Below, in pieces: positions 3,571 to 22,225 of a stretch of DNA of 22,257 nt. Below the pieces are notes generated by a model that did not search any database, was not told the DNA's origin, and was given only the letters and a program-made list of their open reading frames with translations. Numbering within the stretch: position 1 is the first letter of the stretch; every line of letters starts with the position of its first letter. Source of the DNA: a virus; IMG/VR virus record IMGVR_UViG_3300008450_000514, positions 1-22,257 of that record. One strand, 5' to 3'. Position numbers and translations under genes: made by a program.

Positions 3571-3610
3571 AGATCACCTCGTTGCCCTAGCAATTACAGC
3601 GAAAGAAGGC

Positions 3611-3626
3611 TGCATCAACGCACAAA
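3611..3626 (-). promoter_or_regulatory. conserved 16-base element, copy A (candidate late promoter or operator)
   Basis: The minus strand reads TTTGTGCGTTGATGCA in the 58-bp gap between the gp16-like gene and the fibre adaptor. It matches 15/16 bases of the element at 18411-18426 and ends 40 nt before the ATG, versus 43 nt there. Ungapped similarity continues downstream, including an AGGG(C/A)AAC segment 22-30 nt after the element. It contains a TGC..TTGATGCA near-palindrome. I see no convincing host -10 box at proper spacing. The position before the fibre gene corresponds to that of the T7 phi17 promoter. Confidence 0.5.
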
Positions 3627-3628
3627 GA

Positions 3629-6600
3629 TTATCTGATGCCAGTCACATTGTTGATGAAGGCGTTTGAGTCTTCTTTCAACCAGAACAGACCAGTCAATGG
3701 CAGCATCAGATAAAACTCTTTGAGTGCTTCCCCGTAATCGCCACCAGCAAGTTTGGCTGTAGCATCAAAGCCATCTTTGATAGTGCTAGAGCCAGCGCCA
3801 AGGATAGTAGTCGCGGCAGAGCCAAACCCATCCTCGCCATAAAACGACAATGGCAAGATGTCGTTTTCAGGGTTGTTAAGGCCAGCTTGCACTGAGAAGC
3901 GAAGAGAGTTCAGCGCAATGTCAGAGTAGATTGAGCCAATTCCACTACGCTCAAATGCCGCAGACAGCCTCTCTTCTTCATCCATATCTTCCCAAGCCCA
4001 GTCTGGAGTGCGAAGCTTGGCAAGCATATATCCAAATCCAAACATTGTAGCAAAACCAGCTACGCGATGTTTTGATTGCTGTTGGGCTGCGGTTCGAAGG
4101 ATGTTGCTATAAGCATTCATTGAGTAGTTGTAGAAGATAAACGGCATAGTCATGATGCCGCTTTCCATTTGAACATAGCCGGGAAAATCTTCAGCCTCTT
4201 GAGCGCTTGGATAGATTTTTCGCGCCTGCTTGATTGGCAAAAACACTGATCCATCAGCGTAAGTGTAGCGAGTGGCGGCGCTAGAGCTAAGAATTGTGTT
4301 GCCAATAGACATTGAAACAGCGGCTCTAAAAGAGGCAATGGTTTCAGTAGAGATGCCAAAAGTATCCCAGTCTTGGATGTTTGCAACAAAAAGTCCGTTT
4401 GAGGTTTTCTCAACAGGCGCTGACTTTGCAATTTCCTTAGCCGCTTTCATAGAAATTCCATGCCTTAGCAGATATTCACGGTCAAACTTAGAGGCGGTGC
4501 CATCAAGAATGCGACGAGAAATGTCCACAAAGTTATGAGCAGACAGGGAACCACCTAAAGTTTTTAGTGCAACAGTTGCTGGGCCAAGGCCGTTAAGAAC
4601 AAAGGCAGCATTCTTAATAGTTGTCCAAGTTTTTGAAGCAACCTTTGCCCCGGTATCCTCAATCGCTCTTTGCTGACTAATCCCAAGTGAAAGCTCAAGA
4701 GCTTCAGCAAACTCAGACTTCACAGCGCTCAATTGTTTTTGCCAAGCTTTGCTTTCAGCAGAAGCCATAATGCCTTTGAACGTATTCTTGAAGCCATGCT
4801 CAAAGATAATCTTTCCAAAGTCACCAATTGCAGTGAAGCCAGCGCCACCAAGGTAGTTTGTAGATGTAAACTCCTTGATGAACTGAACAGTCCTGTTGGT
4901 TAGGCTAGTCGGGTCTGAGAGCGTAGTTGCTGTGACGCGCTTGTGAAGGATGGTTAAGTCCTTCCTAAGCATGTTGGCCTTTTCAACGGAAACGCCATTA
5001 TCAATAAGATCGCCAACAAGTTCGTCAGCAAGATCGTTGTAGGTCTTGTTGCCAAATTGTTTGGAAAACTCGATCTTGTTTCCAATGTTGTGCGAGTAAG
5101 CTCTCATCACGCCACGAAAATCTGTGTCGATGAAGTCTATGATTTCCGAGTTTGGAATGTTGAGCATACGGCTGGGATACCGATTGCTTCTGCTGCTTGC
5201 AGAACTGTTGATTGGATCATCATCAGTCAAGATAGACTTGATAACCGAGTCAACATATCTGTCCTGTGCAGGAATATCCCCAGTCAAGTCGCGAGGCTTG
5301 TAGAGACCGCTTACGTTGTCGTATTCGGTCCCATATGGGTTGAGCCTAATGTATTCAGTAATCTTGCGACGAAACTCCTTCGGGCCAGCTTCATCCTTAG
5401 AGATTCGATCCACAAGATATTGACGTGTATAGAACGGCTCAGGTTTGCCCATTGGGCGAATGGGGCCAGACTGAATGTATGCTAAGCTGTTATTAAGCTC
5501 CGCCAACTCATCACTGAATTTTTTGAGCTGACCCCTCCAATACTTTGCAGCATCACTATCGTTCTGACGTGCAGCAAGAAGCCGATCAACTTCCTTACGA
5601 AGCTTTATGTTTGCATTATCAACCCGGTTCTGAGCAACCAAGATTCGCTGGTTAATAAAGTCTTGAGACCCGATAACGCCATACTGTTTAGCTTCATCGC
5701 CAATTTTTCCAAGGTAATCATCCATTAGCTTGGCTGCTTCCATTTCCTTTGGAAGCATTGGCTCACCCTTGATCCTCTTTATGTTTACGCTGTTTAGCCA
5801 GTCATCAAAAGTAGGACCAGACTTTGTAACCCTGCGGACAAGGTTTGGGGCAATCTTCGGCGCACTCGTCGCGTCCCTCCAGATAGAAGCAAGCTTTTCT
5901 TCAAAGTTATAAAGCTGACCGCGACGAAGCTTTACGTTGATTTCAACGCTAGGGGCGATTGTCATGCCAAGTTTTTGCCCAGCATAAAGTGTTGAGCTAT
6001 CACCAGCCAAAAGCAAAGCAGTCTTCTTAAAGACGTTTAATGCCTCACGCGCAGAAGATGTAGCGCCTGCATCTAGCTTAAACTTAGCAATGCTTGTCAT
6101 TGGCGTTGGCATGATGTCAACGTAATCGAAGAAGCTGCTAGCAATGGCATACGGGTCTTCGATTCCATCAACCAACCCTTCATCCAGTCTGCGGATGTTA
6201 AGCTCATCAATGATTGCTTGGCGCTGAGACGACATGTTGAGGATGTCAGCCTCAATGGTTTGGATAGCTGATGGTGGAAGGTTTAGTTGGCCGTTGTTGA
6301 TGCGATCAATTACCTGCTGCTTGCCAGTCATTTGCTGAGAGAGAAACATGCTGTCGGCTCGAAGTTTGTCCGCGTCAGCAGTTCCCATTGGGCGTTGGCC
6401 TTTGACCATAGCCTTTAGGATTTCCTGACGATCAACAAAGTCTTCCATTTCACGAATGGTCTGAGCGTGTTGGCCAAGGCGATAGTGGGCGTTGTCAACG
6501 TAATTGCCGTAGGCCTTCTTGCCAGTGTAGATACCACCGCCAAGCAAGCCGCCAACAGCAACGGATGCCGCAACATTAAATGCGCCTTCCATCGGATCGT

Positions 6601-7084
6601 AACCGGGCATGACAAAGGATCGAAGAACCTCTTCTCCAGCAGTTACAGCGCCAGCAGTCAACGCTACGTTAGCCGCAGAGCCCAGCAAAGATGCACCCTT
6701 GTAAAAACGAACAATCGGGATTGCAGACAGTGGATCGGCAACAGCGCCGACAACCGTCTGACCAAAGGTTGCATTCTTGAAGGTTGCCCGATCAAGCTGA
6801 TCCTTGTCGAACAGTGTCTTCATGTATTCAAAGTCTTGTTGCCGTGGAGCCATGTAGAGGTCCAGTGCAATAGACTTGTATCGCTCAGGAACACTTCGAT
6901 CAAACTCCTCGCGAGGAGCCGATACATCAGTTTTAAACAAGGCAACAAGTGGGTCTTTCCATCTGGAGATGGAGGCGTAAACCACTTGAGTCGTAGATGG
7001 CGGAGGCTCTAGTCCCGGCTGTCCAGTAACAGGGCGAAACGGAATAGCGCCTGAAGTTTGGCCCAAGCCAGTGTCTATCTCCAT
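3629..7084 (-). CDS. large internal virion / DNA ejection protein (T7 gp16-like by position)
   Basis: This 1151-residue protein is the last of three consecutive ejection-type genes (gp14-, gp15-, gp16-like order as in T7). Two hydrophobic Gly/Ala-rich segments lie at about residues 105-190 (VVGAVADPLSAIPIV; AFNVAASVAVGGLLGGGIYTG). More follow at about 735-760 and 800-825, and near 965-1010 (GIMTMPFIFYNYSMNAYSNI, then AGFATMFGFGYMLA). The middle is helical and charged. The C-terminal part has WAWEDMDEEERLSAAFERSGIG (split around residue 1031), a pattern I associate with podovirus ejection proteins. In T7, gp16 crosses the inner membrane during DNA entry, and the hydrophobic segments fit that. 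T7 gp16 begins with a lytic transglycosylase domain, but I see no such motif here. The ATG lies 1 base after the previous stop, with only a distant SD. Confidence 0.75.
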   Translation of the reverse strand: MEIDTGLGQTSGAIPFRPVTGQPGLEPPPSTTQVVYASISRWKDPLVALFKTDVSAPREEFDRSVPERYKSIALDLYMAPRQQDFEYMKTLFDKDQLDRATFKNATFGQTVVGAVADPLSAIPIVRFYKGASLLGSAANVALTAGAVTAGEEVLRSFVMPGYDPMEGAFNVAASVAVGGLLGGGIYTGKKAYGNYVDNAHYRLGQHAQTIREMEDFVDRQEILKAMVKGQRPMGTADADKLRADSMFLSQQMTGKQQVIDRINNGQLNLPPSAIQTIEADILNMSSQRQAIIDELNIRRLDEGLVDGIEDPYAIASSFFDYVDIMPTPMTSIAKFKLDAGATSSAREALNVFKKTALLLAGDSSTLYAGQKLGMTIAPSVEINVKLRRGQLYNFEEKLASIWRDATSAPKIAPNLVRRVTKSGPTFDDWLNSVNIKRIKGEPMLPKEMEAAKLMDDYLGKIGDEAKQYGVIGSQDFINQRILVAQNRVDNANIKLRKEVDRLLAARQNDSDAAKYWRGQLKKFSDELAELNNSLAYIQSGPIRPMGKPEPFYTRQYLVDRISKDEAGPKEFRRKITEYIRLNPYGTEYDNVSGLYKPRDLTGDIPAQDRYVDSVIKSILTDDDPINSSASSRSNRYPSRMLNIPNSEIIDFIDTDFRGVMRAYSHNIGNKIEFSKQFGNKTYNDLADELVGDLIDNGVSVEKANMLRKDLTILHKRVTATTLSDPTSLTNRTVQFIKEFTSTNYLGGAGFTAIGDFGKIIFEHGFKNTFKGIMASAESKAWQKQLSAVKSEFAEALELSLGISQQRAIEDTGAKVASKTWTTIKNAAFVLNGLGPATVALKTLGGSLSAHNFVDISRRILDGTASKFDREYLLRHGISMKAAKEIAKSAPVEKTSNGLFVANIQDWDTFGISTETIASFRAAVSMSIGNTILSSSAATRYTYADGSVFLPIKQARKIYPSAQEAEDFPGYVQMESGIMTMPFIFYNYSMNAYSNILRTAAQQQSKHRVAGFATMFGFGYMLAKLRTPDWAWEDMDEEERLSAAFERSGIGSIYSDIALNSLRFSVQAGLNNPENDILPLSFYGEDGFGSAATTILGAGSSTIKDGFDATAKLAGGDYGEALKEFYLMLPLTGLFWLKEDSNAFINNVTGIR

Positions 7085-7085
7085 C

Positions 7086-10000
7086 TTAGTTCTGCCCTCT
7101 CAGTTTGCCTTGAAGTTCAAGAAGCTGCGAAACAATCTCATCGCGACGAGGGCTTGGGCGAAGTTCACCCATTGCTCGAATGACCTTGCGAAGTTGTCCG
7201 CTTGCAACCCCGGTGTCTTTGCCAGCCGACTCAGCAATCATTGGCATGAGCTTAGCCGCTTCTGAGTTCTTTCCAAGGACAGACGAAATGCTATCGACCA
7301 GTGCTTGATCCACTGTCAAAGCCATTGAGGCTGGGACTTGAGCGGGCGCTTCAATGCTTGGCGTTTGAACAGTAGCGGCTTCAGTCGTTTGCTGCTGAAC
7401 CTCTTCAGCCATATCCGGCGGAAGGGCTGCGGCAATTGCTTCCGCAGAAATTATTCCGTCTTCTACTGGCAGCGTTGGGCTTTCGGGCGGCATCATCTTT
7501 CCAAGTGCTTTAGCCATTGGCAAGCTATCAGCAGTAAAGGCGCTGTTAGGAACAACAGTTACAAACCCATTCTGATCTGCTGCGTAGAGTTGCCACTGTG
7601 GCTTAGACGTAGTTGACCCAGGCGTTGGGCCGTAGAATACGCGCCGAGCGATGCCCAAGTTTGCTTGAGCTTGAGACGCATTGCCAACAACGTCCTGAAC
7701 AATCTGAACAGGGAAGTAGTTTGGATTTGCCTGAAGTTCCTCAATCGAAACAATGCCCAGACCAACGCCGTAAGCGCTTCTCTTGGGAAAGCTTAGACGA
7801 TTGTCTTCCGTGCTAAGCTTCTTAACGATTTCAGCAACGCCGCTTTCAAAAGCCTTGATGTCGTAACCAAAGCTTTCAGGATGATGGCGAACAGTTGATC
7901 CACCAGTCAGGGGATCATAGCCATTAGGATTTTGAGTAAACCGCTTCTCAACGGCCTTCTCCATGATCCCATAGGCATTGCCACGATGAACAGTTGCCAT
8001 TGCCATTGCCAGTGGAACAAACTCATCCATCAATGAAGATGGAACGCCAAGGTTTGCCAGCATCTGAGCGGGATTGTCGTAGCTTGTAAGTTCTTTGAAG
8101 ATTTCGTCAGACATTGGGTCGCGCAGTCTATCGCCAACGGCAACGACATAAGAACCTTCAGCGCCAATTGGAGCCATCTCAGCAGCACTAACAAGTGCCT
8201 CAAGTTTTGCGGCATCGCCCTGAAACTCTCGAACAACGCCTTCGTTCACAGACATCTTTCCAGTTGCATCAACAGTGAAAAGATTTGAGCGAACATAGCC
8301 AAGAATGATCTGAGCTTGCTCAGCGGAAGCTGTGCCATTCAAAATTTGAGAGGCAGCATACTTAAGCTCTTTAGGAATGACGCCTCTATTGGCAATGCTT
8401 AGCGCAACAGCATTTGCCTCAGCCTCATTGGCAGGAGGACGCATAAAGAGATCAGTTGGAAGCGAAGCAAGGCCAACAGCCTGAGAGACTAACTGGCTGG
8501 TTTCTTCCGCAGTTTTGCCAACCAAAGTGCCAGCACCCAAGTTTTGCAGGTCAGTTTGCTCCTGCTGGATTGCTTGAGTCTGTGCAAAGCTCTTGGCAAT
8601 AGCTTCAGACTGACTTGAAAGCTCTTCAGATACCTTAGTGCGATTTGCAGAGACGACCTTTCCTTCGATGTTAGTCGATGTGCCAAGAGCTTTATCAATC
8701 TCAGCTTTCAACTCAGGCAACAAGTTTTTAGCATCATTTGGATTTCCAGTGTCAGCGTAGATAGATGCGGCTTTGAGTTGCTGAGAGCGCATTGCCGCAT
8801 CTGGGATGTTCGACAGAATGTTTGAGATTGAGCTATATGCAGCAGCCGTTACTGCCTTTGAAGCAGCATCAATGTGAGCAGGTGTTCCCGTCTGACCAGT
8901 TTTTGCTGCAAGAGCGTTAAGAACTCCAATATTGCTGGTGAAGTTTGCGCTCGTAGTGCCAGTTGAAATCCTTTCCGCGCCAAGATTGAAGTTCTTCTGG
9001 TTCTCGCCGTTCTGAAGCGTTGTCATCTTGGAAGACAGATCGCTGTTGATTGACTGAACATACTGAACAATCTCTGGATCAGCGTATGATCCATGCTTCT
9101 TGGTAAACGCAGCATAAGCAGCTTGCTTCTGTGCAAACGGAACAGTGTCGTCGCCAAAGATTGACTTCAGGGCCGTCGAATCTTCAGTGATATTGATCTG
9201 CGTCAGGCTTTTTTCTTTAGCCCGCGCAATGTCGCCACCTTGCTTCCAGCTTTTAGCAATAGAGCTAAGGGTTCCACCTTCTCCAGCAACTTCTGGCGCA
9301 AGAATGTTGTAGAAGATTGGCGGCATAATATCGGCAAGAGTTGCCTGATCCCCAGCAGCAAGAGCTTCCGCAAAGACAGACAATGTTTGGCCGCTTGGAT
9401 CACGGCTATTCAGCATTGACGAGACACGACGAACAACGCCTTCGTTCAACTGTTTCTCAGCAGAATTAATCTTAGAAAGGATCGAGTTGTAAGCGTCCCG
9501 GCCAATAACTCTTGGATCATACTTAGAGATTTCATCAATGAGCTGTTGTCTAGCCTGATAGATTTGAGTCGCTGAACCAAATTCGCCATAGCCAGCATAG
9601 GTGTTTGAGTCAACAGTCTGAGCCAAGGTGACATCAAAAACCGTAGCATTGTCTTTTTCGGCGGCAGCTTCAGCCTCAGACCTAGCTTTGGCATTGTTTG
9701 CAATCGCAGCCCCAACATCTTTTGAAATCTCAAAGACATCTTTGTTTTCATTGGCAAACTTTATGTAGTCAATCGGAGCATCAACCCCAGACATGACTTC
9801 CATTTGCTTGACAACACCACGTGCTGCTGGGCCCATCATCTCATAGATTGTCTTTTGGCCACCGCTCTGCATGTAGAGTTGGATAAGGCCAGAATCCACG
9901 GCCACATTTGGATCGGCCATTGCAGCAGACAAACGACCAGACATGTAAGCCGTGCGAGCTTTCTCAAGAAATTCAGGCTTAGAGTTTGGAGAAATTCCAG

Positions 10001-15094: not shown

Positions 15095-15604
15095 TCAGTG
15101 CAGCACGGGCCGTGATGTCACAGTCTCACCAGATTTTACTTGTGGACTGCAACGCACAAAACGGATGACCACTTGTCCATTTGCAGTTTGAATATCACGT
15201 TCTGGCAAAAAGCCAAGAGAAACTAACCACTGATGGATCATCTCGTTCTCTGTCCAAACATCACAGGTTAGGCGCGGATGCAGCAGATTGTAGAAAGCCA
15301 TCAATTTGATTGAAGCTCTGGCAAAACTAATCCAGTGTTTCCGCATGTCTTTGCTAAACATGGCCCACATAAAGCCGTGATCTGGATCAATGCCAGTCAC
15401 CGCCAATGCCTGACCATCCTTCTCCACAGCATAGACCAGAGGATTGTGAACGATAGCCTCAAGTGATTCGAGAGGCGACCGCTCATAGAGTGTTTCAAAC
15501 TCTCTAAGGTTTTCTGAGCTAAGATTGGCTACGAAGGGTAGGATGTGGCGCTGTTCTAACGCCACAAGCCGTAGGCCACGCTCTTCAAGGAACGGCTTAG
15601 CCAT
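15095..15604 (-). CDS. T7 gp13-like (internal virion protein A type, GNAT-like fold) protein
   Basis: A 169-residue protein from the ATG at 15604 (MAKPFLEERGLRLVALEQRH). This start overlaps the scaffold stop as ATGGCTAA. The ATG 14 codons upstream has no SD and would overlap scaffold by 50 bp. Its second half resembles T7 gp13 in layout: LVYAVEKDGQALAVTGI, GFMWAMFSKDMRKHWISF, LTCDVWTENEMIHQWLVSLGF (T7: 'v..gN..HirfL...Ga.f'), then a final GQVVIRFVRC strand. T7 gp13 is needed for assembly but is not kept in the mature virion, and the fold resembles GNAT acetyltransferases without proven activity. Its place between scaffold and capsid, not after gp12, is unusual and suggests a morphogenesis role. 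Confidence 0.75.
   Translation of the reverse strand: MAKPFLEERGLRLVALEQRHILPFVANLSSENLREFETLYERSPLESLEAIVHNPLVYAVEKDGQALAVTGIDPDHGFMWAMFSKDMRKHWISFARASIKLMAFYNLLHPRLTCDVWTENEMIHQWLVSLGFLPERDIQTANGQVVIRFVRCSPQVKSGETVTSRPVLH
15150..15160 (-). promoter_or_regulatory. partial copy C of the 16-base element, upstream of the capsid gene
   Basis: The minus strand reads TTTGTGCGTTG followed by CAGTCC, identical over 11 bases to copy A (TTTGTGCGTTG-ATG-CAGCC) except for three missing bases and one substitution after it. It lies inside the 3' end of the gp13-like gene, 132 nt before the capsid ATG. In T7 the capsid gene also has its own promoter (phi10). It is partly constrained by coding (F-V-R-C), so it may be chance. 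Confidence 0.3.
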
Positions 15605-16352
15605 AGATTTTCTTGAACCCTGCATCGACCTTCTTGATGAAGTCATTGTCGCGCTTGGATGGGTTCCAGTAACGCTCGTCCCGCATCATCTCGCGCAGGT
15701 CCGCTTCGGAAGTGCCGCTTGCCGGATTCGCGCCTTGAGCAAAGCTACCATCCTTCATTGCGTCCATCATTACCTCAAGGGCAACAATGCCTTCTGCGCT
15801 TTCGCACAGACGCTCAATGGCAGGCAAAGTTTCTTTGGGGAAAAACTTGTTTGCAAACATTGACGCAGCTTCAATGCGTTGGTTTGCGCTGTCCCCTAGT
15901 TTCTTAACTTCTGCGCCCAAGTCCACAGGGCTTGGAAGCGAATCCATGTAGGTCTTGATGCCGCTTTCAAATTCATCCTGAGAGTATCCGTTCTCGAATG
16001 AGTGATCGGCCCACCACTTCAGCAACGGATTGTCGCCAATCTCAGACGAGTCAACGTAGTCTGGAAGGGCATACTCGCCAGCAGATGCAGGGCGATCTTT
16101 GTATGCCTCAGACTGAAGCTCCTCAATCACTTTCTTACGCAACTCTTCGTCGCGTGTGCCAAGCTTGCCCTCAAGCTCTTTGTAGGCTTTAGCCAAGTCT
16201 TCGGGAGACTTGTATTTCTCAGGGAGCCATTCGGGGCGCTGAGAAGAATCAGTTTGCTGTGGTGCAGCTTGAGTTACTGCGTCAGTGATCTGGCTATTCT
16301 GCGGTGCAGCAGTTGTATCCTGCGGTGCAGCGCCCAAGAGGGATTCGCTCAT
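15597..16352 (-). CDS. capsid assembly scaffolding protein
   Basis: A 251-residue acidic protein of the T7 gp9 type. The N-terminal 35 residues are Gln/Ala/Thr-rich and disordered. They are followed by the typical RPEWLPEKYKSPEDLAKAYKELEGKLG segment (residues about 39-65), charged helices, and a basic helical C-terminus (DNDFIKKVDAGFKKIYG), as expected for the capsid-binding end. It acts inside the procapsid and is normally lost on maturation. The ATG overlaps the stop of the Bbp19-like gene (ATGA). Its own stop overlaps the gp13-like start by 8 bases. Confidence 0.88.
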   Translation of the reverse strand: MSESLLGAAPQDTTAAPQNSQITDAVTQAAPQQTDSSQRPEWLPEKYKSPEDLAKAYKELEGKLGTRDEELRKKVIEELQSEAYKDRPASAGEYALPDYVDSSEIGDNPLLKWWADHSFENGYSQDEFESGIKTYMDSLPSPVDLGAEVKKLGDSANQRIEAASMFANKFFPKETLPAIERLCESAEGIVALEVMMDAMKDGSFAQGANPASGTSEADLREMMRDERYWNPSKRDNDFIKKVDAGFKKIYG

Positions 16353-18448: not shown

Positions 18449-19972
18449 TTACATTCTGGCCCAGAGTCCCTGCCTGCGCTTGGGCTTATCTTGCCGCTCA
18501 AACACGTTAAAGTCACGCTTTGCGACCGTAACCTGTGCTGGTTTTTGTGAGTTCATCAAGGCTCGTCCCTCGCCTGCGCCGAGAAGAAGATACTGCAAGG
18601 CGTCATGAACGTGGCTATACATGTTCTTGTCGGGCTTGTCGGCATACCGCTCTCCCGAAACCTCCATCCGCTTGTAGGAATAGCCACCCTCGAAGCCCTT
18701 GATGATGGTCGAACACCTGCGATCTATGAGAAACGCTGGCTTTCCCTCCACCATCTTAGTCAATTGGGACGCAACAGCCTCAATCCGCAGGTCTGGAGAG
18801 TTGGATGGAGCAGGAAATGCCCTCAGTCCAGCGCCACGAAGGATGTGGAACGGCGTGGATTCGTCTGTCTGCGCTCTGAAATCGCCAGCCGGATCACCAT
18901 AGATGATAGTTTCGCCCGCTGCCGCAAATCTAGTTGCCAGTTCGTTGCGTAGAACCTCAGCAAACCTGACAATCCCCATGTCAATTGCCACGATCTCAGA
19001 CTGGATGAGCCATCGGCCCCTGATCTTCTGACCAATCGCAGCCGCTGGCGTCAGACCAAAGTCCAATCCGACATAGACAGGAAGCCCCGCAGCAATCGGA
19101 ACCTCCTCTGTGGCAATGTGGGCCTCTGCCGCGAACATAGGATACACTGGTTTCCCATCCTGAATGGTGCCAAGGCGGTTCATCACATAGACATCAATCC
19201 AACTCTTGGTCTTGCCCTGAATTAGATTGGGGTAATAGCTCTGCATCATGTTCTTGCGGTTCTCAGCAAGAGCATTCGGGACATACTTGTCTACCGATCC
19301 CTCGTCGTCCCTTACCTCTGACATGCCGGGAGGCTGGGTGAAGAAGCGCCAGTTGTCTGGCTTCACCAGCATCTTGGCCTGCTCTCGCGGAATGTGGTCT
19401 GGAATCGGAACCTCGCCCGACATGATCGGCCACCAGTGATCCTCTTCCGGCGCGTTGGTATCTGCAATCACGCCAGTCCAGCTAGGGCCACCATCACGCA
19501 TAGAAGGGTAGCGACCGACACGCATGGTGCAGGCGTCAATAATGCTCTTGGGAATCTCTCTGGCCTCGTTGATCCAGATGCCCGTAAGTTCTAGTGACAG
19601 AAGCTTCTTCACATCTTCGGGTCGATCAAGGGCGAGGAAGATAACCTCAAGCTCCATGTCGCCCTTCTTGATGTTGTGCGTGTAAGGCACTGACCAAGTA
19701 AACTTGCCCCAGTCATTCTCTGGGAACCAGTCCAGCCAAGTCTTGATCGTCGTCGTTCTTAACTGTGGGTTTGTGTTTCGGATGATGGCCCATCGACTCT
19801 TGCGCTTACCATCCGGCCCCTTTGCCTGCATCAAGGCGCGACGAAACACCTCAACGCAACAGCCGACAGACTTGCCGCTGCCAACTGGACCCCTGATGCC
19901 ACGAAAAAAAGTATCGTCCTTCATGAACTGCTTTAGCACTTCACCATCAGGCTTATACTTGAAGTCGATCAT
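18449..19972 (-). CDS. terminase large subunit (packaging ATPase and nuclease)
   Basis: A 507-residue DNA packaging motor subunit. The ATPase domain has Walker A GPVGSGKS at residues 28-35 and a Walker B-like LTGIWINEARE with catalytic Glu136 (Asn precedes it where many terminases have Asp). The RNase H-like nuclease has Asp304 in VGLDFGL, Asp360 in IYGDPAG and Asp457 in HVHDALQYLL, the usual acidic set. The C-terminus is basic (RQDKPKRRQGLW), suiting portal or DNA contact. The ATG overlaps the preceding stop (ATGA) with SD AAAGGAC. It lies directly upstream of the portal cluster, unlike T7, where the terminases follow the tail fibre. Confidence 0.95.
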   Translation of the reverse strand: MIDFKYKPDGEVLKQFMKDDTFFRGIRGPVGSGKSVGCCVEVFRRALMQAKGPDGKRKSRWAIIRNTNPQLRTTTIKTWLDWFPENDWGKFTWSVPYTHNIKKGDMELEVIFLALDRPEDVKKLLSLELTGIWINEAREIPKSIIDACTMRVGRYPSMRDGGPSWTGVIADTNAPEEDHWWPIMSGEVPIPDHIPREQAKMLVKPDNWRFFTQPPGMSEVRDDEGSVDKYVPNALAENRKNMMQSYYPNLIQGKTKSWIDVYVMNRLGTIQDGKPVYPMFAAEAHIATEEVPIAAGLPVYVGLDFGLTPAAAIGQKIRGRWLIQSEIVAIDMGIVRFAEVLRNELATRFAAAGETIIYGDPAGDFRAQTDESTPFHILRGAGLRAFPAPSNSPDLRIEAVASQLTKMVEGKPAFLIDRRCSTIIKGFEGGYSYKRMEVSGERYADKPDKNMYSHVHDALQYLLLGAGEGRALMNSQKPAQVTVAKRDFNVFERQDKPKRRQGLWARM

Positions 19973-20157
19973 CGAAGTCCTTTGTCCACTCCAAAGCGGA
20001 TCATCTTCTCTGCAATCTCTGGCCCCAAGCTTTCAATCAGCTTGTCGCACTCTTTGTTGGTGGCGTGTTCCTTGGGGACATAAGCCAAATGAACCTTCCT
20101 CACTATGCCGCGAAGAAGGTCCAAGTCTTGTTTTCCGATTGTGCTGATGAAGCTCAC
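19969..20157 (-). CDS. small conserved-looking protein upstream of terminase large
   Basis: A 62-residue protein from GTG at 20157, which overlaps the preceding stop (GTGA). The sequence is helical: DLDLLRGIVRKVHLAYVPKE, then NKECDKLIESLGPEIAEKMI, then FGVDKGLR. It ends inside the terminase start (ATGA). I recognise no domain. The regular hydrophobic spacing and embedding between coupled genes support a real gene. Being directly before terminase large, it may help packaging, but this is only positional. Confidence 0.65.
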   Translation of the reverse strand: MSFISTIGKQDLDLLRGIVRKVHLAYVPKEHATNKECDKLIESLGPEIAEKMIRFGVDKGLR

Positions 20158-20315
20158 TTGCCCTTAGCCGCCATTTCTTGAAACTTGGTCTTGCCATACT
20201 TCTTGCGACCAATGCTTGCCGCCAAAGCCTTCGGGTCTTTCACACCTTTAGCTGCCAACTCCTTGGTCAACTTCTTAAAGCGACCACCGCCACCAAGCTT
20301 CATGTTATCAGCCAT
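20154..20315 (-). CDS. tiny basic Lys/Gly-rich protein, unknown function
   Basis: A 53-residue protein beginning MADNMKLGGGGRFKKLTKEL, continuing AAKGVKDPKALAASIGRKKY and ending GKTKFQEMAAKGK. SD AAGGAA lies about 8 nt before the ATG. The start overlaps the previous gene by 8 bases (ATGGCTGA) and the stop overlaps the next start (GTGA). The GxxxPxALAAxIGRKKYGKxKFxxMAAKG pattern recurs in small phage proteins near terminase genes, as I recall. The high positive charge suggests nucleic acid contact (inference). Confidence 0.7.
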   Translation of the reverse strand: MADNMKLGGGGRFKKLTKELAAKGVKDPKALAASIGRKKYGKTKFQEMAAKGK

Positions 20316-20559
20316 CTCGGTATTTCCTTACCTTGTCTGCGATTGTCTTGGGTTGCTTGCTCACCTGTTTGCCAGCCTTAGTCGCTTGCTTCTTAGCTGC
20401 GCTGGTTCTGGCATACTCTTCAGAGCTTAACGCCTGAATAGCCTTCTTGGGAAGATACCTCTCGCCCGTGGCATTAGGGCCTTGCGTAGAAGGTTTACCA
20501 CTCTTCGTGGTCCACTCCTGCTTCGTCCACGCAACCAAGGACTTCTGAGGCTTCTTCAT
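20308..20559 (-). CDS. small basic protein of the 'WTKQ-W-TKSGKPS...TGERYLP' type
   Basis: An 83-residue Lys-rich protein. Residues 5-48 hold a distinctive motif order: KSLVAWTKQEWTTKSGKPS, then NATGERYLPKKAIQALSSEEYA. A basic tail follows (KKQATKAGKQVSKQPKTIADKVRKYRDG). This pattern is widespread in aquatic phages as a small protein of unknown function. The ATG overlaps the previous stop (ATGA). The invariant Trp pair and the basic tail would suit DNA or RNA binding, but no activity is known to me. Confidence 0.78.
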   Translation of the reverse strand: MKKPQKSLVAWTKQEWTTKSGKPSTQGPNATGERYLPKKAIQALSSEEYARTSAAKKQATKAGKQVSKQPKTIADKVRKYRDG

Positions 20560-20702
20560 TTCTTCACCTTGGGTGGTGTGTGCGTCAGCTTCTGGCTCTT
20601 CGCAGTGTGCGTTGCGCCAGTCATGAGTTCCTTCCCGGTCTTGTGAACAGGACCAGTATAAACCTTGCCGCTTGCCAAGTAGTGCTTAGAAGACTTGCTC
20701 AT
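20556..20702 (-). CDS. tiny basic protein, unknown function
   Basis: This 48-residue gene runs between two ATGA overlaps, with its start on the previous stop and its stop on the next start. The protein begins MSKSSKHYLASGKVYTGPVH, continues KTGKELMTGATHTAKSQKLT and ends HTPPKVKK. It contains a (Y)xGxVHKTG(K)xxMTGxxHTxxSxxL segment rich in Lys, His, Gly and Thr. I do not recognise a named domain. The overlap with two plausible genes and the continuous frame support it as real. Basic charge is shared with its neighbours. Confidence 0.68.
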   Translation of the reverse strand: MSKSSKHYLASGKVYTGPVHKTGKELMTGATHTAKSQKLTHTPPKVKK

Positions 20703-20875
20703 GAAGTATACCCTCCACCTTTGGCCTTATACTGCTTTGCCAGCATCTGCGCTTTCCGCGCACTCCACTGACCGGGATTCCCACCCTTGTCTCCAGCCTT
20801 AATGCGCTGAAACAAACTCTTCCGCATTCCCGGTTTTGTATAGTTCCCAGCCTCATTGACCTTAGACTCAGCCAT
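20699..20875 (-). CDS. tiny basic protein with 'YTKPGMRKSLF...GQWSARKAQ' motif
   Basis: A 58-residue protein. The central motif is NYTKPGMRKSLFQRIKAGDK, then GGNPGQWSARKAQMLAKQYK, then AKGGGYTS. The 'YTkP.mR..L...Ik.g.kGG.pGQWSARKaQlLa..YK..GGGY' pattern recurs among small phage proteins of unknown function. The start overlaps the HNH gene's stop by 8 bases (ATGGCTGA) and the stop overlaps the next ATG (ATGA). Conserved W-S-A-R-K and the net positive charge suggest a defined fold that meets nucleic acid (inference). Confidence 0.75.
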   Translation of the reverse strand: MAESKVNEAGNYTKPGMRKSLFQRIKAGDKGGNPGQWSARKAQMLAKQYKAKGGGYTS

Positions 20876-21143
20876 TGTTCAGTTTCCCTGCGTTCTTGTT
20901 TCTGGCAATAGAACGATTGGCCGCTCTGGAAATCACTCGAAGGTTTTTCTTTGAGTTGTCGGTCGGGTTGCCATTCTTGTGGTCAACATCCTTCCCATCA
21001 TTCCGCTCAGCCTTGCCTTCTTTCTCCATCTCATAGCGGGCTTTCTTGCGCGCACGATTCGCAGCCATCCGCTTAGCAGACTTGTCGTATTTGCCCTCGC
21101 CACTCATAGAGTAGTCGCGCACATAGTTCTCATTGCTGGGCAT
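20868..21143 (-). CDS. HNH-type endonuclease-like protein
   Basis: A 91-residue protein. The C-terminal half has the HNH pattern KDVDHKNGNPTDNSKKNLRVISRAANRS (residues 51-78 in all): His55 after Asp52/Asp54, Asn59, Asn63 and Asn67 and a final Asn77, matching the 'DH.NGN..DNr..NLR......N' layout of phage HNH proteins. The N-terminal half is highly basic (KSAKRMAANRARKKARYEM). HNH proteins beside terminases in other phages assist DNA cleavage during packaging, while similar ones are homing endonucleases. Here the gene is tightly overlapped by both neighbours, which favours a resident packaging or DNA-processing role. The classic zinc-binding Cys pairs are absent. Confidence 0.82.
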   Translation of the reverse strand: MPSNENYVRDYSMSGEGKYDKSAKRMAANRARKKARYEMEKEGKAERNDGKDVDHKNGNPTDNSKKNLRVISRAANRSIARNKNAGKLNNG

Positions 21144-21318
21144 TCATCATCCCCATCGTCAGAAGAGAACGCCGCTCAGCACCAGTCCGAAACTTCTTAT
21201 AAGCCGGACCAGTCCGCTTGACAGGATCAGTAGTCAACGAAGGAAGCGGCGCAGGCTCAACCTTCATCTCGTTATAATAATCCTCAGCAGTCTTAACCTT
21301 GCCTCCGCCCATGCACAT
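21130..21318 (-). CDS. small MCMGGG-type phage protein
   Basis: A 62-residue protein from ATG at 21318, chosen because SD AAGGA lies 8 nt upstream and the start follows the previous stop by 4 bases. Upstream extension in the frame is not needed. It begins MCMGGGKVKTAEDYYNEMKV, continues EPAPLPSLTTDPVKRTGPAY and ends KKFRTGAERRSLLTMGMMNAQQ (split at residue 60). Proteins starting MC(M/F)GGG with a Pro-rich middle and 'RRSLL' end recur in podovirus head regions. The 'RRSL' end is shared with the pre-portal protein at 18128-18367, which may indicate a common role (inference). It overlaps the HNH start by 14 bp. Confidence 0.72.
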   Translation of the reverse strand: MCMGGGKVKTAEDYYNEMKVEPAPLPSLTTDPVKRTGPAYKKFRTGAERRSLLTMGMMNAQQ

Positions 21319-21322
21319 AGCG

Positions 21323-21631
21323 TCAATCCTTCTTAGCTTTGAGGCGACGACTAATGGCCCGCGCCTTGGCCTTGGCATCATCCTTACTACTAGCGCCCCA
21401 TGCCTTTAGGCTGAGAAGGAGGCGAGTCGGTCTTCCCTTCTCATCCTTCTCTGGACCCGGCATGTTACCCATCCGCGCCAAGAAACTAGCACGTCTAGGA
21501 TTATCCCCAGACTTAACAGGAGGCTTCAAGCTACCTCCAGTCTCGCGATTGTAAGAAGCCCTACCAGCAGCGTTCAAGCCACCCTCAGGATTCTTCCCCG
21601 CCTTCCTCTGCCACGCTGGTGTCTTTGCCAT
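21323..21631 (-). CDS. small basic protein of the 'PAWQRKAGKNPEGGLNAAGR' family
   Basis: A 102-residue protein. Key segments are TPAWQRKAGKNPEGGLNAAG, then SLKPPVKSGDNPRRASFLAR, then MGNMPGPEKDEKGRPTRLLL and SLKAWGASSKDDAKAKARAI. The order (P-x-x-Q-R-x-x-G-K-N-P-x-G-G-L-N; R-x-S-F-x-x-R-x-x-x-x-x-G-P; L-x-x-W-G; K-A-x-A-I) is a widespread phage family of unknown function (DUF6321 from memory, number not checked). The ATG at 21631 is preferred over the in-frame TTG at 21637. The 5' end overlaps the 42-aa gene by 47 bp. The many basic residues fit the charge of the whole cluster. Confidence 0.8.
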   Translation of the reverse strand: MAKTPAWQRKAGKNPEGGLNAAGRASYNRETGGSLKPPVKSGDNPRRASFLARMGNMPGPEKDEKGRPTRLLLSLKAWGASSKDDAKAKARAISRRLKAKKD

Positions 21632-21713
21632 ACCCAATGCTCTTCAGCTTCTGTTTCGCCAAACTAGTGTCAGACCTTACAGCCTTCTCAGGCTTCTTAT
21701 CATATCTAGCCAT
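21585..21713 (-). CDS. 42-aa basic protein at the head of the small-gene cluster
   Basis: A strong SD (GGAG, 6-7 nt spacing) precedes ATG at 21713. The encoded protein is MARYDKKPEKAVRSDTSLAK followed by QKLKSIGYGKDTSVAEEGGE and ES. It is the first gene after the gap and terminator-like hairpin that follow terminase small. It overlaps the next gene by 47 bp in another frame. No family is recognised. The SD and position support it, while its length and the overlap limit confidence. Confidence 0.55.
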   Translation of the reverse strand: MARYDKKPEKAVRSDTSLAKQKLKSIGYGKDTSVAEEGGEES

Positions 21714-21844: not shown

Positions 21845-22225
21845 CTAGCCAAGGTCTATCTGCACTCGGATATCACCTGCTACCTGCACCTGTGCCCTAT
21901 CTATCGGCTTGAACCCAGCACGATCTAGCAAATCCTTAGCCGCTTCTAGCTGAACATACTCGCTCTTCGCGCTCTTAGCTAACCCAGCGACCTTACCTAC
22001 TGCCATCGCTGCGTGCATACTGAACACCTCTGCTGTCTGCTGCATCAGATACTGCTGCACATGGGGTGTCTTCATCGCCTTCCATGCAGTCACTCTTCCG
22101 CTGTTCCCTTCGGAGTATCCTGCTTCTTCTGCGGCTTTTGTCAGGTTACCGCCGTTTGCAACATACGCTTCAACCAGCGCCTTCTGTCTTGTGGTTAGCT
22201 TACGCTGTTCTAGCGCTCTAGACAT
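21845..22225 (-). CDS. terminase small subunit
   Basis: A 126-residue DNA-recognition subunit of the packaging machine. The N-terminal domain (about 10-62) is a helix-turn-helix of the terminase type: LTTRQKALVEAYVANGGNLT, then KAAEEAGYSEGNSGRVTAWK, then MKTPHVQQYLMQQ ('f...y...g.n.t.AA..AGYs...a...a...l..p.v..yl'). The C-terminal part has VQLEAAKDLLDRAGFKPIDR, a frequent ending that may form the oligomer or large-subunit contact. The ATG (22225) has no classical SD. A pair of G7 runs (22235-22252) lies about 10 nt upstream. The large subunit gene is separated from it by nine small genes, which is unusual. Confidence 0.9.
   Translation of the reverse strand: MSRALEQRKLTTRQKALVEAYVANGGNLTKAAEEAGYSEGNSGRVTAWKAMKTPHVQQYLMQQTAEVFSMHAAMAVGKVAGLAKSAKSEYVQLEAAKDLLDRAGFKPIDRAQVQVAGDIRVQIDLG

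Follow-up and report, generated by a model that had tools for sequence, protein, structure and literature searches.

In a 22,257-nucleotide stretch of viral DNA (IMG/VR virus record IMGVR_UViG_3300008450_000514, positions 1 to 22,257; hereafter the window), the genes for the small (TerS) and large (TerL) terminase subunits are separated by nine small genes, g1 to g9 in transcription order, that encode basic proteins. Comparison of related loci revealed that this interval is an insertion site with a core gene (g9), a near-core gene (g2), an obligate pair (g5 and g7), and an accessory remainder. By analogy with the internal proteins of phage T4, we propose, with a probability of roughly one-half, that the cassette encodes late, DNA-associated cargo proteins of the phage head and occupies an insertion hotspot between TerS and TerL. 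According to this proposal, g9 would be the fixed neighbor of TerL, and each lineage would hold a variable assortment of small, basic proteins between TerS and g9, the recurrent cargo being a DUF6321 protein (g2) and the g5/g7 pair, which may jointly make one DUF5872-type protein. The cassette proteins would bind nucleic acid, presumably DNA, would be made alongside the head and packaging proteins, and may enter the head with the genome. Once there, they could condense or protect the DNA or, if ejected with it, act in the host.

The spacing from TerS (positions 21845–22225; assigned in the initial annotation, and kept as the upstream border in 46 related loci) to TerL (18449–19972; phrog_2, E 6e-22) is 1872 bp. 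The window TerL shares 65% identity with its counterpart in pelagiphage EXVC031P Hodr and 43% with the TerL of Methylophilales phage MEP301. Both terminase genes lie on the minus strand, as do the nine coupled open reading frames (ORFs) that fill the interval, in agreement with the initial annotation of about 1.9 kb of small genes between the two subunits. Its description of the junctions as short or 8- to 14-bp overlaps holds for most of them (g3/g4, 14 bp; g4/g5, 8; g5/g6, 4; g6/g7, 4; g7/g8, 8; g8/g9, 4; g9/TerL, 4) but not for g1 and g2, which overlap by 47 bp, or for g2 and g3, which are separated by a 4-bp gap. The start of g3 is probably position 21318.

Related loci were collected by scanning IMG/VR with the window TerL, which identified 80; with Hodr added, 46 hold both TerS and TerL. 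Across these 46 loci the order g1-g2-g3-g5-g7-g9 is kept, and g6 and g8 change place. Gene g9 (19969–20157; 62 amino acids [aa]), which directly precedes TerL, is present in all 46 intervals and exhibits no change on a TerL tree (47 rows, built by a quick search under a simple model). Gene g2 (21323–21631; 102 aa) is present in 40 intervals with two changes, and g5 (20699–20875; 58 aa) and g7 (20308–20559; 83 aa) are each present in 24, plus one fusion, with nine changes apiece. The accessory genes g3 (21130–21318; 62 aa; 29 intervals, five changes), g6 (20556–20702; 48 aa; 29 intervals, four changes, with a placement relative to g5/g7 that varies), g1 (21585–21713; 42 aa; 23 intervals, six changes), and g8 (20154–20315; 53 aa, with a GRKKYGK motif; six intervals, four changes), like the rare insertion g4 (20868–21143; 91 aa; two intervals, three changes), have their own change patterns, separate from that of the g5 and g7 pair; changes in g6 do not track those in g5 on the tree. 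Moreover, three relatives have an interval of only 277 to 278 bp that holds g9 alone, and neither DUF6321 nor g7 was found elsewhere in the available fragments (24 kb and 18 kb) of such relatives. We read the interval as an insertion site because of these patterns of gain and loss and the existence of relatives with g9 only. On the same co-occurrence data and tree, we reject the idea, hinted at in the initial annotation, that all nine genes form a single functional unit. In two other relatives, an unrelated ORF with no Pfam match (386 aa at positions 4653–5813 of locus L042; also in L057) replaces the basic cassette in the gap between TerS and g9.

The pair g5 and g7 is inherited in an all-or-none manner, in that 24 of the 46 loci carry both genes, one carries a fusion, and 21 carry neither. 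Their states are concordant in 8/8 independent pairs on the TerL tree (p 0.008). Among isolated phages, 16 of 17 records are common to the g5 and g7 searches; the remaining g7 record belongs to Hodr, in which the two form a single ORF of 132 aa. Scans of GTDB genomes with g7 recovered fused proteins of 138 to 142 aa with the order reversed (g7-g5) in SAR11 single-cell genomes, and fused proteins in the order g5-g7 on chromosomes of Sphingomonas, Roseomonas, Croceibacterium, and Belnapia, with many of these contigs being hundreds of kilobases long. Because the two are fused in both phages and bacteria, their sequences indicate that each gene encodes half of a single protein.

Separately, g5 (which carries a GQWSARKAQ motif) and g7 (TGERYLP) fall into the unnamed families phrog_17747 (E 7e-33) and phrog_14910 (E 4e-31), respectively, and neither alone yields a Pfam match. 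Together they align with bacterial fused proteins that overlap DUF5872 (PF19197): one of three (L119) scores 27.7 bits against a cut-off of 27.5, and the other two (L153 and L148) lie just under it. No convincing NCBIfam match was obtained for the fused proteins. A confident structural model of the g5-g7 fusion (predicted local distance difference test score [pLDDT] 85) has matches among the phage and giant-virus proteins of BFVD, with the DUF5872 protein of giant virus CeV-01B among the weaker fold matches. In the Sphingomonas- and Roseomonas-type proteins, the region in common is followed C-terminally by Rho_N-like segments, histone-H1-like Lys/Ala-rich tails, or DUF3140, and the Sphingomonas gene often comes after uvrD. 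The SAR11 fused gene sits within a conserved cluster (positions 2710–8878 of L123; also on other SAR11 contigs) encoding an amine oxidase, DUF1365, a Cfa cyclopropane synthase, DUF3833, a short-chain dehydrogenase, and TspO, an arrangement that resembles light-response clusters of the LitR/photolyase type. Phage-like contigs with g5/g7 (L104–L113, L128–L131, and similar) also occur in metagenome-assembled genomes labeled Euryarchaeota, Woesearchaeota, Chloroflexi, and others, which is probably the result of binning contamination.

All nine interval proteins have an isoelectric point (pI) of at least 8.0, and six exceed 10, consistent with the mostly basic character noted in the initial annotation. 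Virion genes elsewhere in the window encode mostly acidic proteins, with a few small ones at pI 8.6 to 9.3. Among conserved small ORFs, net charge per residue is +0.133 inside the interval versus +0.027 outside (p 2e-11, which is optimistic because the sequences are related). Median pairwise ratios of nonsynonymous to synonymous substitution (dN/dS) range from 0.12 to 0.36 across the eight families tested, all but g4, including 0.29 for g1 and 0.36 for g3, although gene overlaps may slightly bias the values for g1 and g2. These eight families are under purifying selection.

Such data bear on the possibility that the interval is plain mosaicism, a hotspot of unrelated small genes lacking a common role and spread in part by HNH nucleases. 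Every family except g9 does vary, and g4, with its few occurrences and three tree changes, is an HNH protein, the one called a nuclease in the initial annotation (PF13392, HNH_3, E 7e-8, 32.4 bits with a cut-off of 24.8; phrog_4590, E 6e-11). However, the largely fixed order across the 46 loci, the charge excess, and the low dN/dS values indicate that the cluster is more than chance, and g5 and g7 are never apart in complete intervals. In addition, one contig (L364, positions 4697–7585) carries a 962-aa ORF with a g4-type HNH domain and a DUF6321 domain separated by seven SAR[ED]xLxxI repeats. Its gene is located upstream of a major head protein gene, with two genes between. Judging from its domains, this protein joins g4 and g2 within a single product of the head module, albeit in one case only, and resembles a tagged or processed internal-protein polyprotein; when relatives of this repeat-bearing protein were sought, only the L364 contig was returned. 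We therefore regard mosaicism without a shared role as quite improbable.

The head-cargo proposal also draws on where the same genes recur. Phages that carry g5/g7 have unrelated backbones (HMO-2011 type, the Zobellviridae phages MEP401/402, and several groups of pelagiphages and roseophages). Of 79 viral loci with g7, 30 have TerL and 26 have an SU10-type head-tail adaptor gene no more than 3 kb away, although such nearness alone is modest evidence given that phage structural modules are large. MEP402 has the order g2-g5-g7-TerL, and in a T7-like locus (L160) the pair is flanked by the genes for the major head protein and a tail protein. Away from terminases, the interval families neighbor capsid, tail, or SU10-type adaptor genes or occur in bacterial chromosomes, and phage copies are mostly in virion modules. 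The initial annotation had tied its proposal to residence near terminases and to purifying selection; the latter is clear, but the former does not hold in some genomes.

Could g9 and the basic proteins instead be accessory terminase subunits that help hold or translocate DNA during packaging? The presence of g9 in every interval, its 4-bp overlap with the TerL start, and the placement of family members beside or between terminase genes in three unrelated backbones would all fit. Nevertheless, everything but g9 is absent from the relatives with 277- to 278-bp intervals, whose available 24-kb and 18-kb fragments hold no copy elsewhere, and other phages keep these genes by adaptor, capsid, or tail genes away from the terminase. 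As an account of the whole cassette this is unlikely, although for g9 alone it may hold. The g9 model is helical (pLDDT 73, medium confidence), and tblastn searches with g8 and g9 at an E value of 1 gave no match in isolated phages. We found no evidence for action on DNA during packaging itself, as suggested in the initial annotation, and the evidence for carriage in the head is stronger. What survives of that suggestion is that the cluster is real, selected, and basic, is associated with packaging and head genes, and has indirect links to DNA.

Virion association can be approached through g2, which matches the entire DUF6321 profile (PF19846, E 9e-26; 90.7 bits with a cut-off of 28.5; profile positions 1–72 of 72). 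This domain is present in 514 phage records, mainly from cyanophages, where it is often the C-terminal end of larger proteins of up to more than 500 aa. By annotation, the T4-like phages P-HM1, S-SM1, Syn9, and S-CREM2 carry DUF6321 between gp16 (TerS) and gp17 (TerL), and the same is true of 14/14 T4-like IMG/VR loci that include both terminase genes. In T4 itself, an N-terminal capsid targeting sequence directs the packaging of small, basic internal proteins (PMC9026906). A pattern was built from the residues reported there (4 and 7 for targeting, 8 and 10 for cleavage), and in T4-like loci it matches 7/86 DUF6321 ORFs versus 22/4872 other ORFs (p 4e-7, again optimistic given related sequences). 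The 22 other matches are mostly a gene of about 105 aa adjoining DUF6321. This family, directly downstream of DUF6321 in T4-like phages (L341–L370 and others; for example, L341 positions 3576–3890), has a T4-like targeting N-terminus, MKSFKQFLSESVNI, and no Pfam match. Among DUF6321 proteins, S-SZBM1_192 has the targeting-like N-terminus MKTFKQYITEAK. Mass spectrometry (MS) of S-CREM2 virions detected ORF136 and ORF137, both encoded between TerS and TerL (PMC10665884). In S-SCSM1, gp029 has a clear DUF6321 domain and is labeled 'virion protein' in its record, and this phage has an MS-defined virion proteome (PMC9602691). Virion association of some DUF6321 proteins is thus supported in relatives, from which we infer that cassette proteins of the podophage group in the window may likewise be present in virions.

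Several observations weigh against head carriage. The S-CREM2 ORF137 match to DUF6321 is weak (E 2e-4) and its detection was based on 4 peptides, S-SZBM1_192 (ORF192) is not in the MS table of its phage (PMC9146016), and the S-SM1 DUF6321 protein carries no structural label in its record. A targeting sequence common to all DUF6321 proteins can be rejected, since 79/86 lack one, and by eye none of the nine N-termini in the window fits the pattern. No virion proteomics was found for any phage with g5 and g7. Moreover, the fused g5-g7 model matches no solved fold, and DNA binding therefore rests on charge, fusions, and neighbors. For g2 and g7, neither sequence nor fold comparison produced a useful match to solved structures.

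A different reading holds that the cassette proteins act only within the infected cell, in late or early host takeover or in counter-defense, and that the TerS-TerL gap is merely a tolerated insertion site. This would be compatible with the fast turnover of g1, g3, g4, g6, and g8, with cassettes reduced to g9, with the 386-aa or other unlike ORFs that some relatives have in the same place, and with the host-derived metabolic genes that T4-like cyanophages hold in this gap. We consider it rather unlikely, however, given that DUF6321 and g5 plus g7 recur by head and packaging genes in unrelated phages, that some DUF6321 proteins have targeting-like N-termini, and that two homologues are in virion MS sets.

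Other features of the window and of these families were also recorded. Family library searches gave no confident match for g1, g3, g6, g8, or g9. Scanning the interval for promoters and terminators was not informative (4 promoter-like sites versus 1.4 expected, with 2 on the coding strand, both within g2). The window ORF at positions 15095–15646, between the presumed scaffold and capsid genes, looks like an N-acetyltransferase, and MEP301 has a putative acetyltransferase just past TerL. The DUF6321 proteins of pelagiphage Greip (L096, positions 3791–4042) and Synechococcus phage MinM2 are annotated 'RecA-like recombination protein', which is likely a misannotation, perhaps by label transfer from Syn9 gp114. 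No paper on DUF6321 turned up in the literature search, and DUF5872 was mentioned once, in passing.

No function has been assigned either to DUF6321, which occurs in more than 500 phage records, or to the protein formed by g5 and g7, which is carried by many marine phages and by SAR11 and which giant algal viruses encode as DUF5872. The split protein, its co-inheritance, and the clustering with head and packaging genes provide a specific and inexpensive functional test, and if the proteins are virion cargo, they would represent a widespread packaged protein set in ocean viruses. More tentatively, unrelated marine phages might share an exchangeable nucleoid-type kit (DUF6321, the split DUF5872 pair, and an occasional HNH protein) that is loaded into the head beside the genome and delivered to the host, with the same DUF5872 protein being chromosome-associated in SAR11 and other bacteria.

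The initial annotation considered the cassette a candidate undescribed system, but most families already have names (g2 is DUF6321, g4 is HNH_3, and g5 plus g7 approximate DUF5872), and extra genes around the cyanophage terminase are likewise known. What appears to be new is that phrog_17747 and phrog_14910 can be recognized as DUF5872-type halves, that they are strictly co-inherited, that SAR11 and Sphingomonas have chromosomal versions, and that some DUF6321 proteins have targeting-like N-termini. At the domain level, g2 does not differ from DUF6321. The bacterial chromosomal proteins that overlap DUF5872 align with g5 plus g7, and a giant-virus member is among the weaker fold matches, but the window lacks the single two-part architecture and instead has two genes. 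The T4 internal head proteins IPI–IPIII and Alt are similarly small, basic, variable between relatives, and head-linked, and some DUF6321 proteins share a targeting-like N-terminus with them, unlike the proteins of the window. We know of no sequence similarity between the cassette proteins and the T4 internal proteins. Finally, Millard and colleagues reportedly described in 2009 a cyanophage hyperplastic region in which accessory genes gather around the terminase genes. The interval resembles this region, where DUF6321 is among the accessory genes, but the cyanophage cargo includes host metabolic genes, whereas that of the window consists of small basic proteins.

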